64,000 bases of DNA from Acidovorax sp. 106 (GTDB lineage: Bacteria > Pseudomonadota > Gammaproteobacteria > Burkholderiales > Burkholderiaceae_C): the NCBI RefSeq assembly GCF_003663825.1, contig NZ_RCCC01000001.1:2364501-2428500 (forward strand), written 5' to 3'. Shown here piece by piece: positions 8,463 through 12,421 of this stretch. Each line of letters opens with the position of its first letter. Position 1 is the stretch's first letter. Under the pieces are notes generated by a model. That model did not search any database. It had not been told where the DNA came from and was given only the letters and a program-made list of their open reading frames with translations. Position numbers and translations under genes: made by a program.

Positions 8463-8948
8463 TCACTGCCGATGCAGCACCCGGGCCAGCGCATGGTCCA
8501 GCGCCAGCCACCCGCCACCGCGCCCGACCAGGTAGAGCATCAGCCCTGCCCATGACAGGTGCGTAGGCCAGGCGTCGGGGTACACAAAGAGCTGAATCAC
8601 CAGCGTCATGCTCAGCAGCGCCAGGGCCGACAGGCGCGTGCACAGGCCCAGCAACAGCAACGCCGCAAACAGATGCTCTGACACCGTGGCCAGCTGCGCT
8701 GCCAGCTCGGGCGGCAGAATCGGCAGCCGGTATTCCTCGCGGAACAGGGCATAGGCCCCGTCGCTGATGGTGAACCAGCCATCGACCTTGGTGCGGGCCG
8801 ACGCCCAGAAAATGCCCGCCAGCGCCACACGGGCCACCAGCGCCAGCAGGCTGTGGGGGGTCAGTCGCTGTGCCAGTGCCGCCAAGCGGTGGAGCCCGTG
8901 TGGCTCGCCGGGCTTTGTAGAAGTGTTGGGGCTCATGGGTTTTTCCAT
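8463..8948 (-). CDS. DoxX-family membrane protein, last gene of bufferin operon
   Basis: This four-helix inner-membrane protein of 161 residues has the DoxX-type sequence LVARVALAGIFWASARTKVDGW followed by hydrophobic helices. It starts directly after the bufC stop with no gap, so the two are translationally coupled. The same fourth position is taken by a DoxX protein in the Caulobacter gig (bufferin) operon. A role in redox balance or in the membrane step of the pathway is plausible but unproven. Confidence 0.88.
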   Translation of the reverse strand: MEKPMSPNTSTKPGEPHGLHRLAALAQRLTPHSLLALVARVALAGIFWASARTKVDGWFTISDGAYALFREEYRLPILPPELAAQLATVSEHLFAALLLLGLCTRLSALALLSMTLVIQLFVYPDAWPTHLSWAGLMLYLVGRGGGWLALDHALARVLHRQ

Positions 8949-9713
8949 TCAAGGTGAAGGGGCGGCCAGCGCGCCTGAGTGCAGCAGCAGGGCCATCAGG
9001 GCGCCCAGGTCGGCGCCGGGTTCGGCAGCCAGGGCCGCGAGGGCAGCGACCTCCAGCAGGTCTCCCTTTTCGCAGGCGTTCAAAAATGCGACACCCGCTG
9101 CGGTCAAGGCCGTCCATTGCACGGCGCCCTGCGGGCGCGTGAGCAAGCCGCCATCGCCCTGCCAAGCGATGTCAGCAGGCAGCGTCAGTCCCTCGCGGTG
9201 TGCCTGCCACAGCGCAAACGCGGGGTGGGCTGGGCTGTGGTGCCAGCGGGCGGCGGGGTGCGGCCGCAGGGCCATGGTTGCCAAGGTGGATGCGTCTTGC
9301 GCCGCCAGCCAGTTGGCATCCAAAGCCTCGGCATCGGCAGCCAGGTGGCTGTCGGTCCAGCAGCGGTCCAGCCGTGCCACATCGGCCAGGTAAGGCAACT
9401 CGGCCGCTGGCCCAAAGTGCTCCAGAAAGGTGGCAAAGCCGTCGCCGTAGTGGGTCAACCGCGCATCTTGCGGCGGGTGGGCCTGGGTGTAGAGGTGCGC
9501 GGCAGCGCGAAACCACGCCTCTCCCACCAGCGCACACACCGTGGGGTAGTTGGCTTGCAATGCGTCGATGCAGCCTTTGGTGACGGTGTTGCGGTACACC
9601 GCAAACGCAGGGTGCTGCACCACGTTCGACATCGTCGCATCGACCCGTGCACTGGTCGATGGGGTGTGCCACAGCGCGGCAGCGAATGCGTCTTGAAAAT
9701 CACTCAAACGCAT
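8949..9713 (-). CDS. bufC: BufC-like partner protein (DUF2063)
   Basis: The 254-residue protein has an N-terminal DUF2063 domain (about 1-95: LSDFQDAFAAALW, VYRNTVTKGCIDALQANYPTVCALVGEAWF) and a less conserved C-terminal half. In MbnC- and BufC-type systems this subunit pairs with the DUF692 enzyme and helps it bind the precursor. Its start overlaps the end of bufB by ten bases. It should work in the cytoplasm with BufB to modify the BufA precursor before export. Confidence 0.88.
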   Translation of the reverse strand: MRLSDFQDAFAAALWHTPSTSARVDATMSNVVQHPAFAVYRNTVTKGCIDALQANYPTVCALVGEAWFRAAAHLYTQAHPPQDARLTHYGDGFATFLEHFGPAAELPYLADVARLDRCWTDSHLAADAEALDANWLAAQDASTLATMALRPHPAARWHHSPAHPAFALWQAHREGLTLPADIAWQGDGGLLTRPQGAVQWTALTAAGVAFLNACEKGDLLEVAALAALAAEPGADLGALMALLLHSGALAAPSP

Positions 9714-10579
9714 GACAGCCCATCGGCCGTGGAGGCCTGCTGCCGTCCTTTGGGGGCATGCGCCGCAGCGGTCAGCATGGCATGTGCGCGGTCGCGCTCG
9801 GCTATCAGTTCGGACAAGGCAGGCACATGCTCGTCGCGCTCAATGAGGGTGGGGCGTGGGCCGGTGCGCGCCAGCACCTGCTGGTACAGCGCCCACACCG
9901 GCTCGGCCACGGGGGTGTCGTGCCCGTCAATCAGCAGGTGGGCGCCTAGTGCGGGGTCTGCGTGGTGGCCTGCCAGGTGGATCTCGGCCACGGCGTGCAG
10001 TGGGTAGGTGTCCAGATCGCTGGGTTCGCCCAGGTTGTGCGCGCTCAGGTACAGGTTGTTCACATCCAGCAGCAGGCTGCAGCCCGTGCGGCGCACCAGC
10101 TCGGCCAGAAAGTCGGGCTCGCTCCAGTCGTGGCCAGGCAGGGGTAGGTAGTGCGTGGGGTTTTCGATGGCAATGGTGCGCCGCAGGGCATCCTGCGTGC
10201 GGCCAATGTTGTCGGCCACGCGGGCCAGGGCCTCGTGGGTGCGCGGAAACGGAAGTAAATCTGGGTGGTAGGTGTCGCGCCAGGCCGACCAGGCCAAGTG
10301 CTCTGACACCAGCACCGGCTCGATGCGCTGCACCAGGGCGGCCAGCCGCGCCAGGTGCGCTGCGTCGGGCGGTGCATCGGCCGCCAGCGATAGCGACACG
10401 CCGTGCAGGGAGATAGGGTGGCGGCCCCGGATGGCCTGCAGCCAGGCCAGGCGCGGGCCGCCGTCGGCCAGGTAGTTCTCGGGGTGCACCTCCCACCACA
10501 AGCCGGGGGCGTTGCACTGCAGTGCGTCATCAAAGTGCTGGGGCTTGAGGGACAAGCCCGCTGTCAGTGCGTGTGCCAT
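9704..10579 (-). CDS. bufB: BufB-like multinuclear iron oxidase (DUF692)
   Basis: A TIM-barrel protein of 291 residues of the MbnB/BufB family. Candidate metal ligands of the family are present in order: WEVHPENY (29-36), SLHG, VSEHLAW, AIENPTHY, LDVNNLY, EIHLAGHH, LIDGHD and LIERDE. These enzymes use a multi-iron centre and oxygen to convert cysteine side chains into heterocycles (thiooxazoles in bufferins). The neighbouring precursor gene lies 45 bases upstream and the partner bufC overlaps downstream. Confidence 0.9.
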   Translation of the reverse strand: MAHALTAGLSLKPQHFDDALQCNAPGLWWEVHPENYLADGGPRLAWLQAIRGRHPISLHGVSLSLAADAPPDAAHLARLAALVQRIEPVLVSEHLAWSAWRDTYHPDLLPFPRTHEALARVADNIGRTQDALRRTIAIENPTHYLPLPGHDWSEPDFLAELVRRTGCSLLLDVNNLYLSAHNLGEPSDLDTYPLHAVAEIHLAGHHADPALGAHLLIDGHDTPVAEPVWALYQQVLARTGPRPTLIERDEHVPALSELIAERDRAHAMLTAAAHAPKGRQQASTADGLSCV

Positions 10580-10624: not shown

Positions 10625-10918
10625 TCAGGACTTCATGGGCATGAGCGAGCCCATGCCCTTGGGCGTCTTGATGCTGGCGCAGGTGCCTGCGGGCACAAAC
10701 TTCCAGGCGTTGGCCTGGTAGTCCACCTTGGAGGTGCCCGCACAGGTGGTGCCAGGGCCTGCGGCGCAGTCGTTCTTGCCAGCCATCGAGACGCCGTAGC
10801 ACTTCTCCATGGCGGGCTTGGCGCCATCCATGGGGGCAGCGGTGTTTTGTGCCAAGGCGGCGCCAGAGACCAGGGCGGTGAGGGCCAGTGCGCCCAGGGT
10901 GATGTTGCGAGATGTCAT
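10625..10918 (-). CDS. bufA: Bufferin precursor BufA1-like (DUF2282)
   Basis: This is a precursor of 97 residues. The ATG at 10918 gives a signal peptide ([19 protein letters not shown], cleavage at ALA-Q near residue 24) and has a good AGGAG site upstream; the longer frame from 10969 lacks this. The mature peptide has exactly four cysteines (C40, C51, C59, C80) in the DUF2282 pattern [25 protein letters not shown]. Known bufferins bind copper in the periplasm through cysteine-derived thiooxazoles. It is the first gene of bufA-bufB-bufC-doxX. Confidence 0.92.
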
Positions 10919-11005
10919 GGTGATGGCTCCTGAAAGGGGTTTAAAAGAATCCAGACCGTTTTGGCCCATGCCGTGACAGCATGTGTGCGTCGATCTGCGT
11001 TGTAA

Positions 11006-11031
11006 TTCGCGCTGTGGCTGCGCCGGGTTAC
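11006..11031 (-). promoter_or_regulatory. ECF sigma promoter of the bufferin operon
   Basis: On the minus strand GTAACC (11031-11026) is followed after exactly 16 bases by CGAA (11009-11006). This equals the motif reported for Caulobacter SigF. Transcription would begin near 11000, leaving a leader of roughly 80 bases before bufA. Confidence 0.85.
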
Positions 11032-11074
11032 ACCAGCGGCCACAAAAAACCTGAAGATATTTTTTCGACCTGCT

Positions 11075-11100
11075 GTAACCGGCGGGGCTGCGGCTGCGAA
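11075..11100 (+). promoter_or_regulatory. ECF sigma autoregulatory promoter
   Basis: On the plus strand GTAACC (11075-11080) is followed after exactly 16 bases by CGAA (11097-11100), the same motif as the divergent bufA promoter. The sigma gene starts 21 bases later, with GGAGA (11112-11116) as its ribosome site, so the leader is only about 14 bases. This implies positive autoregulation. Confidence 0.85.
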
Positions 11101-11120
11101 TACCCCGTCATGGAGAACGC

Positions 11121-11705
11121 ATGGAGATAGAAGAACAGCTTCGAGACCTCCTGTTGCTGGGCTTGGCGGCCGATGGCGCCGCATACCAGCGATTTCTGAA
11201 ACAGCTGAGTGCGCACCTGCGGGCTTTTTTGCGCCGTCGCCTTGCCCAGCGTCCCGACGAGGTGGAGGACCTGGTGCAAGAAACCTTGCTGGCCATACAC
11301 AACCAGCGCCACACCTACCGCCCCGAGATGCCGGTGACGGCCTGGGCGCACGCCATTGCGCGCTACAAGCTCATCGACTGGTTGCGTGCGCACCGCGTGA
11401 AAGAGGCGCTGAACGACCCGCTGGACGATGCCAGCGAGTTGTTTGCCAGCAGCGACAGCGAGGCCGCACTGGCCAAGCGCGACCTGGGCCAATTGCTGCA
11501 GACGCTGCCCGACCGCCAGCGCCTGCCCATCGTGCATGTGAAGCTGGAGGGGCTGTCCGTGGTTGAGACCGCGCAGCTCACCGGCATGTCGGAATCCGCA
11601 GTGAAAGTCGGCGTGCACCGGGGGCTGAAGGCCCTGGCCGCCAAGATCAGAAACATGGCTGGCGCCCACCAGGGTGGCAGTCCATCGCCGGGTGCCGCAG
11701 ACTGA
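11121..11705 (+). CDS. ECF sigma factor, SigF-like, controlling the bufferin operon
   Basis: The 194-residue protein has sigma region 2 (about 30-95: [28 protein letters not shown], then [18 protein letters not shown]) and region 4 (about 125-180: [27 protein letters not shown], with helix-turn-helix [17 protein letters not shown]). It lies opposite the bufferin operon and just before an NrsF-type anti-sigma gene, the arrangement known for Caulobacter SigF. Both promoters between the two units match that sigma's motif, so it most likely drives itself and bufA onward in response to copper or oxidative stress sensed by NrsF. Confidence 0.92.
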
Positions 11706-11779: not shown

Positions 11780-12421
11780 ATGAAGACCGATGAATGGATT
11801 GAGATGCTGGCCGCAGGTGCCGCCCCTGTGCCCACCAGGGTGCTGGAGCAGCGCTTTGGCAGCGCCGTGGCTGCGGGCCTGGGTGGCGCCGTGGTGTTGA
11901 TGCTGCTGGTGTTTGGCCTGCGGCCCGACCTGGCGCAGACTGCGGCGTTGCCCATGTTCTGGGGCAAGCTGGCATTTGCGGCGGCCTTGGCCGTGCCCGG
12001 CGTGTGGGCGCTGCAGCGGCTGGCACGCCCTGGCGCGCGGTGGGCGGGTGTGGCATGGTCGATGGCCTTGCCGGTGGCCCTGCTGTGGGCCATGGCTGCT
12101 GGGGCCTTGCTGCAACAGGCCCCGGCAGACCGCTGGGCCCTGGTGCTGGGCAGCACTTGGCGCACCTGCCCGTTCAACATTGCGTTGCTGTCGGTGCCTG
12201 CGTTCATTGCCAGCTTTTGGGCCCTGCGTGGTGCCGCGCCCACGCAGCTGGCCTGGGCTGGCGCGGGGGCAGGCCTGCTGGCGGGGGCCTTGGGGGCGCT
12301 GGTGTATGCGCTGCACTGCCCCGAAATGGCCACGCCTTTTTTAGCGGTGTGGTACGTGGCGGGCATGGCCATGCCGACCGCGCTGGGCGCAGTGTTGGGA
12401 CCGCGTTTGCTGCGCTGGTAG
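11780..12421 (+). CDS. nrsF: NrsF-like transmembrane anti-sigma factor (DUF1109)
   Basis: An inner-membrane protein of 213 residues with a short cytoplasmic N-terminus (MKTDEWIEMLAAG) and six hydrophobic helices, the DUF1109/NrsF topology. Two isolated cysteines, C130 in TWRTCPFN and C180 in LHCPEMA, match the conserved pair that in Caulobacter NrsF is required for sensing metals. It would hold the sigma factor at the membrane until the signal frees it. The gene is 74 bases downstream of the sigma gene. Confidence 0.92.
   Translation: MKTDEWIEMLAAGAAPVPTRVLEQRFGSAVAAGLGGAVVLMLLVFGLRPDLAQTAALPMFWGKLAFAAALAVPGVWALQRLARPGARWAGVAWSMALPVALLWAMAAGALLQQAPADRWALVLGSTWRTCPFNIALLSVPAFIASFWALRGAAPTQLAWAGAGAGLLAGALGALVYALHCPEMATPFLAVWYVAGMAMPTALGAVLGPRLLRW

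Follow-up and report, generated by a model that had tools for sequence, protein, structure and literature searches.

Mirror-image SigF-type promoter sequences between a bufferin operon and the neighbouring sigma gene, and the preferred spacings of this pair in related bacteria

How a gap of some two hundred bases between a bufferin operon and an ECF sigma factor gene can hold the starts of both, and whether these two starts are tied to each other, is the question raised by a locus of Acidovorax sp. 106 within the 64,000 nucleotides analysed here (the window; NZ_RCCC01000001.1, positions 2,364,501 to 2,428,500). A preliminary description had placed in this gap two exact GTAACC-N16-CGAA motifs on opposite strands, with -35 boxes (GTAACC) facing each other at a distance of 43 bases. 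Recomputed on the sequence, these figures are correct: the start codons of bufA (10918, minus strand) and of the sigma gene (11121, plus strand) leave 202 bases between them, in which one exact motif at 11006..11031 on the minus strand (GTAACCCGGCGCAGCCACAGCGCGAA, read from 11031 to 11006) is a predicted SigF-type promoter of the bufferin operon and another at 11075..11100 on the plus strand (GTAACCGGCGGGGCTGCGGCTGCGAA, also exact) is predicted to serve the sigma gene. The spacer is 16 in both, and the 43 bp that separate the -35 boxes (11032..11074) contain an A-tract and a T-tract, predicted to be UP-like elements of both promoters. The stretch between CGAA and the ATG measures 87 nt on the bufA side (10918) and 20 nt on the sigma side (11121), AGGAG preceding bufA and GGAG the sigma gene. 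A consensus scan of positions 10900-11140 found no sigma-70 housekeeping promoter. The motif had been equated with the one reported for Caulobacter SigF, and the accessible part of PMC3511200 confirms the identity. As far as its letters tell, the gap holds two mirror-image divergent promoter sequences, predicted to be read by the neighbouring sigma factor.

The genes on either side fit this prediction. On the plus strand, an ECF sigma factor of the SigF/RpoQ type with regions 2 and 4 (11121..11705; NCBIfam PRK12536 subfamily) is followed by an NrsF anti-sigma factor (11780..12421; PF06532, 2e-71), and the two genes are likely to form one operon. The PF06532 score of this NrsF is far above the cut-off (240.5 versus 26.8); the narrow NCBIfam NrsF equivalog gives 128, below its cut-off of 300. 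The protein has only two cysteines, 130 and 180, and both are invariant among 155 distinct sequences (154 of 154 aligned at C130, 152 of 152 at C180). The minus strand carries the bufferin precursor BufA (10625..10918; DUF2282), whose four cysteines are invariant in all 100 distinct sequences compared, the MNIO maturase BufB (9704..10579; 8e-102), which passes the curated bufferin-maturase cut-off (340 versus 310), BufC (8949..9713; DUF2063) and a membrane protein matching the DoxX family (8463..8948), likely the final gene of the bufferin operon. The genome holds one MNIO match and one NrsF match. The locus has therefore what characterizes a SigF-NrsF system, namely an ECF sigma gene followed by nrsF, the promoter motif ahead of this gene as well as of the bufferin operon, and two cysteines in NrsF, and also what defines a Buf1 cluster, namely a four-cysteine DUF2282 precursor, a BufB MNIO maturase and a DUF2063 partner.

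Could such motifs arise by chance? For the single motif, the chance expectation is 0.04 matches in the 64 kb window, and none of 100 shuffled sequences carried two. Over the 4.88 Mb of the genome, the bare ten-base motif occurs 5 times versus 10 times for the reversed pattern and is thus not enriched. A whole-genome scan for GTAACC-N16-CGAA had been put forward as a way to define the regulon; in this bare form the scan had to be rejected on those same counts, and its stricter variant, TGTAACC-N16-CGA, was of use in adding one site, discussed below. It is therefore the pair, and not the single site, that is the notable feature, and the two-sided pattern with a gap of 28-58 bp occurs once in the genome. 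We searched for this pattern elsewhere with gene information left unused and with the reversed pattern as a control. Genomes with a double site numbered 15 of 399 in the order, 31 of 399 in the family and 4 of 398 in the phylum (these sets overlap, and our genome belongs to all three), and 17 of 74, 14 of 175 and 11 of 219 in three further families, the reversed control giving 0 in the genomes listed for every group searched. Eighty-two distinct double-site places were found, 81 of which were stored with up to 1.5 kb per side and examined, the other having no stored locus. A SigF and/or NrsF gene points away from the pair in 78 of the 81, in some cases at 0.8-0.9 kb, and the remaining 3 have bufferin genes; these also stand opposite the sigma or nrsF gene in 60 of the 81. 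The view that the sites are chance matches, or belong to another sigma factor than the neighbouring one, draws on the missing enrichment of the single motif and is hardly tenable in the face of expected gene neighbours in 81 of 81 distinct stored loci, reversed controls of zero and, in the accessible text of PMC3511200, mapped Caulobacter promoters with the same motif. That one sigma factor would serve both promoters, as first proposed, is very probable from the motif and this gene neighbourhood.

Sampling that starts from the sigma protein only recovers the same arrangement. A preceding count, of 114 loci, was dropped, as 15 of its loci had been found by the pattern itself; the count used here, with identical promoter regions entered once, comprises 102 non-duplicate loci. 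Allowing one mismatch at most, 96 of them have the sigma-side site (86 without any mismatch) and 77 the opposite one (70 without), the spacer being 16 in 96 of 96 sigma-side and 76 of 77 opposite sites. The opposite site is commoner where divergent buf genes are present, 53 of 60 such loci having it versus 24 of 42 without these genes (P=0.0004, uncorrected for kinship).

Several loci depart from the common layout. At L151, L277 and L296 the exact pair lies beside bufferin genes with no SigF or NrsF match inside the stored stretch, which at L277 is short and owes its bufferin assignment to one weak DUF2063 match. In one family of the same phylum and another class (f85), the pair is often flanked by two divergent bufferin operons, the sigma gene following at a greater distance, and two Asticcacaulis plasmids likewise have it between divergent bufferin operons, both sites reading TGTAACC-N16-CGTA with a gap of 46 by hand count. 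At L037 and L162 nrsF adjoins the promoter pair and the sigma match is farther off, so that one promoter would read nrsF first; at L162 this sigma match lies on the other side of the pair and points toward it. At L040, L046, L140 and L141 an MsrP/YedY-like match about 1 kb off replaces the bufferin genes opposite sigma and resembles the Azospira yedY1 arrangement. A SigF-type site precedes the arsenosugar radical-SAM gene ArsS at L142 (TIGR04167 match) and L263 (by resemblance only), and at L158 and L251 a thioredoxin-like gene stands behind such a site in place of bufferin genes; L158 belongs to a distant sigma subgroup, and there a DoxX-like frame, read by eye, comes after the thioredoxin-like gene.

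The stricter motif TGTAACC-N16-CGA is exact at only three sites in the 4.88 Mb, the two of the pair and a third (G000:C1:2716252-2716277) predicted to be a promoter of msrPQ, 64 nt separating the end of CGAA from the ATG. Both genes pass their cut-offs (MsrP 489 bits versus 207; MsrQ 172 versus 130), and the site supplies, as a prediction, the YedY/MsrP target that belongs to a SigF-NrsF system. Apart from the pair and the msrP site, GTAACC-N16-CGAA is exact at two more places; these were taken as chance, because C replaces T before GTAACC and because they overlap long reading frames, named by eye as a pirin-like gene and lon. Across 40 pair-bearing genomes, TGTAACC-N16-CGAA has 103 matches versus 23 for the reversed control (row sums). 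Thirty-seven of the matches lie outside pairs: 14 precede msrP by roughly 50-110 nt and 6 precede bufferin genes (in two cases by virtue of a BufB match some 450 nt on), with single ones, by eye, before a thioredoxin-like gene and an ArsS-like gene, one before a cytochrome-like gene (by eye) with a weak MsrP match further on, and 14 with no recognisable target, 11 of which are inside a long reading frame. The predicted regulon is the same in kind as that of Caulobacter, since SigF there controls bufferin operons and, in part, the induction of CC2748 (YedY), according to the available portion of PMC3511200. The repair of periplasmic methionines by MsrPQ would then be a third arm of the response, and copper-binding RiPPs would share a small predicted regulon with methionine repair, both in this lineage and among related bacteria, which is also the case in Caulobacter.

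The preliminary description had gone further and seen in the locus a compact positive-feedback module. This is not established: NrsF, encoded in what is likely the same operon, brings a negative arm, for which reason we do not call the locus a positive-feedback switch, and Caulobacter sigF is, in the accessible text of PMC3511200, not strongly auto-regulated and also transcribed under a second, unnamed regulator. Strong positive feedback is accordingly doubtful. Nor do the reports on Cupriavidus metallidurans given below, in which rpoQ-rsqA depends on RpoD and gig expression rises in metal-treated cells upon deletion of rpoQ, establish such a module. The weak autoregulation of sigF would also agree with an opposite effect, in which the holoenzyme at the bufferin promoter covers DNA upstream of the sigma promoter and damps sigma synthesis. 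A precedent is found in Pseudomonas syringae hrpL/hrpJ, where, in the part of PMC5263251 at hand, an ECF sigma gene is repressed by the HrpL holoenzyme bound at the divergent hrpJ promoter that this sigma reads, the neighbourhood including a possible UP element. Yet the blocked promoter in that case is of the sigma-54 type whereas both promoters here are of the SigF type, and gaps of 31-57 bp should leave room for both boxes, so that we regard such mutual interference as improbable.

What do the gaps themselves tell? For the spacing tests, 124 distinct loci were used whose pair has no more than one mismatch in total and a gap of 20-62 bp, other gaps being excluded by design together with loci that have no pair inside these limits. 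The gaps, with their counts, are 24 (1), 31-35 (27), 37 (1), 40-46 (73), 47 (1), 50-57 (19) and 59 (2) bp; 119 of the 124 belong to the three classes 31-35, 40-46 and 50-57 and 5 lie elsewhere, and no pair among the 124 has a gap of 36, 38, 39, 48 or 49 bp. The three peaks have means of 33.4, 43.3 and 54.3 and are each 5-8 bp wide. Across relatives the gap thus moves mostly in steps of about one helical turn, a statement that rests on three peaks only and beside which wider gaps exist, such as the 57-110 bp of Paraburkholderia and Caballeronia loci. Differences of about ten bases are met even within a genus (33-34/43-44 in g242, 33/43 in g500, 33/43 in g141, 43-44/53-56 in g1). The odd gaps of 37 and 47 come from the distant sigma subgroup, in which the divergent genes are ArsS radical-SAM and thioredoxin-like.

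At a period of 10.5 bp the resultant length for the 124 pairs is 0.617 versus 0.079 under a jitter null, which keeps the broad distribution, destroys the finer structure and leaves indel sizes outside its model. With one gap value per family and class (n=14, from pattern matches with gaps of 28-58 bp only, 82 places) P under the jitter test is 0.00016, and four families tested on their own yield values from <0.001 to 0.015, uncorrected for kinship. It should be said that a plain control with one narrow peak, the interval between the sigma-side CGAA and the start codon, reaches R=0.45, so the jitter null flags narrow peaks too; this effect inflates the gap tests, and a test on the number of modes was therefore added. 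After reduction to genera (n=51), one mode (P=0.034) and two modes (P=0.006) are rejected and three modes fit (P=0.72); after reduction to families (n=14), two modes are rejected (P=0.034) and one mode is not (P=0.32). When the gap is followed along a FastTree phylogeny (120 tips) built from the sigma proteins, the 28 changes of at least 4 bp that it implies cluster near whole turns (P=0.00065), and a control on bufA leader length has no whole-turn clustering (n=44, P=0.15). Weaker values came from an initial tree-aware test, which took in 99 loci and gaps as wide as 115 bp (P=0.048), and from the coarsest clustering (P=0.047).

These preferred spacings suggest that two polymerases may feel each other through the helix. 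There is a simpler account, to which we give a little less than an even chance, in which the locus is an ordinary SigF divergon with independent promoters, its gaps reflecting inherited spacings and the need of each promoter for its own T-tract, with no interaction between polymerases. Each T-tract does keep its own distance to its -35 box, much of the gap spread lies within clades, the family-reduced gaps are compatible with a single mode, and wide gaps occur as well. Against this, the same gap classes recur in separate families, changes of about ten bases occur within genera, inferred changes cluster near whole turns, and the T-tract need alone should permit any gap above about 33 bp.

The anatomy of the gap bears on the same point. 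When 89 pairs are aligned on GTAACC, both promoters have a T-rich stretch, which spans roughly -17 to -11 for the sigma gene (A+T up to 0.98 at -14) and -16 to -11 for the opposite side (A+T 0.88 at -14); G and C prevail from -10 to -2, and position -1 is mostly T (0.96 on the sigma side and 0.75 on the other). The T-tract may act as an UP-like element for the alpha subunit C-terminal domain. Whether the spacing is carried by the T-tracts instead of the -35 boxes was considered and set aside, the distance between T-tracts being less phased than that between -35 boxes. Alternatively, a third protein, dimeric or DNA-bending, could occupy the gap, set the spacing and co-activate both promoters; the dependence of Caulobacter sigF on a second regulator, again in the available part of PMC3511200, and a GGCAnAAT box kept on the bufferin side of the gap in some lineages would suit it. 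Against such a protein, which we find quite improbable, the gaps compared side by side by eye have no motif common to all besides the two T-tracts. Many lineages have the GGCAnAAT box, some 8-15 bases inward of the -35 box on the bufferin side; in the direction of the sigma gene its letters look like a housekeeping -10 element, which would agree with the reported RpoD-dependent transcription of the sigma gene.

A mechanism that would join what the sequence itself holds, that is both sites, the T-tracts, the genes, the arrangement in relatives and the msrPQ site, may be outlined as follows. Copper or thiol stress in the envelope would release the sigma factor from NrsF, and the freed sigma would switch on its own operon with nrsF and, at the same time, the bufferin operon. 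Two holoenzymes, each held by sigma region 4 and by alpha subunit C-terminal domains on the T-tracts, would sit back to back, and their relative orientation would be fixed because the distance between -35 boxes keeps to a few values about one turn apart; both could be bound at once, so that the two outputs would be tied to each other. We infer that the promoters are active, that the neighbouring sigma reads them and that copper is the trigger. In all, we take the locus for a SigF/NrsF divergon of a known kind, in which a fixed helical phase of the two promoters is likely, and we consider it probable that the explanation as a whole (a divergent SigF-type pair, release of sigma from NrsF, a common start, phase-set holoenzymes and an msrPQ arm) is the right one. 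A stronger version, in which co-bound ECF holoenzymes across a whole-turn gap would help each other, sigma and copper-peptide output would switch as one and the gap would evolve mostly by about one turn, is tentative and, in our judgement, rather unlikely; direct polymerase contact is implausible at the widest Paraburkholderia and Caballeronia gaps. If the spacing is functional, divergent sigma promoters could be coupled mechanically through the face of the helix.

Neither the divergon nor its motif nor the type of regulon is new. The closest counterpart is Caulobacter crescentus, whose SigF-NrsF regulon comprises CC3253-CC3252, CC3254-CC3257, CC2907-CC2905 and CC2748 and which, in the portions of its description available, shares with the present locus GTAACC-N16-CGAA, the sigma-NrsF pair, a bufferin operon (DUF2282, DUF692, DUF2063, DoxX) and a YedY/MsrP target, the two NrsF cysteines being 131/181 there and 130/180 here. 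It differs in that only one MNIO gene is present here; the stresses demonstrated there, as far as the accessible text goes, are chromium and cadmium, and that text describes no preferred or helical spacing. Within the open-licence literature we found no SigF description of the helical phase of divergent or back-to-back promoters, nor any earlier report of what is new here, namely the gene-blind specificity test, the Cupriavidus metallidurans CH34 sites given below, the preferred spacings and, for this lineage, the site ahead of msrPQ. In the accessible part of the bufferin survey PMC12452194, sigma factor and NrsF genes are present in Buf1 clusters, as here, and absent from Buf2; the word promoter does not appear in that part and cis elements are not treated. 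The SigF/NrsF - mrpX - yedY1 hypochlorite system of Azospira suillum (PMC5748585, in the portion available) likewise places a methionine sulfoxide reductase under SigF/NrsF control, although its peptide is methionine-rich, serves against hypochlorite and is no bufferin.

A further comparison is with the gigPABT / rpoQ-rsqA divergon of Cupriavidus metallidurans, whose divergent gene order is that found here. The accessible parts of PMC10304878, PMC11022561 and PMC13192273 state that no gig promoter was found, that control of gig by RpoQ is undemonstrated, that rpoQ-rsqA is RpoD-dependent, and that deletion of rpoQ raised, and did not abolish, gig expression in metal-treated CH34 cells, a rise ascribed by the authors to compensation by other sigma factors. 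The CH34 gig/rpoQ intergenic region (L050:3464-3549) carries both exact sites with a gap of 34 bp, one predicted to point toward gig (NC_007974.2 1315143-1315168) and one toward rpoQ (NC_007974.2 1315203-1315228; both converted from L050 coordinates), and RpoQ is therefore predicted to be able to read both. Expression of gig without RpoQ could come from the paralog RpoR; on the CH34 megaplasmid, the search for paralogs returned one place only at E 1e-12 or better. Between the promoter and the conserved RpoQ start of CH34 there is, by eye, either a short Cys/His-rich frame or an in-frame N-terminal extension that begins at a later ATG. These two sites offer base-exact targets for asking if gig, the bufferin operon of C. 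metallidurans, is driven by RpoQ.
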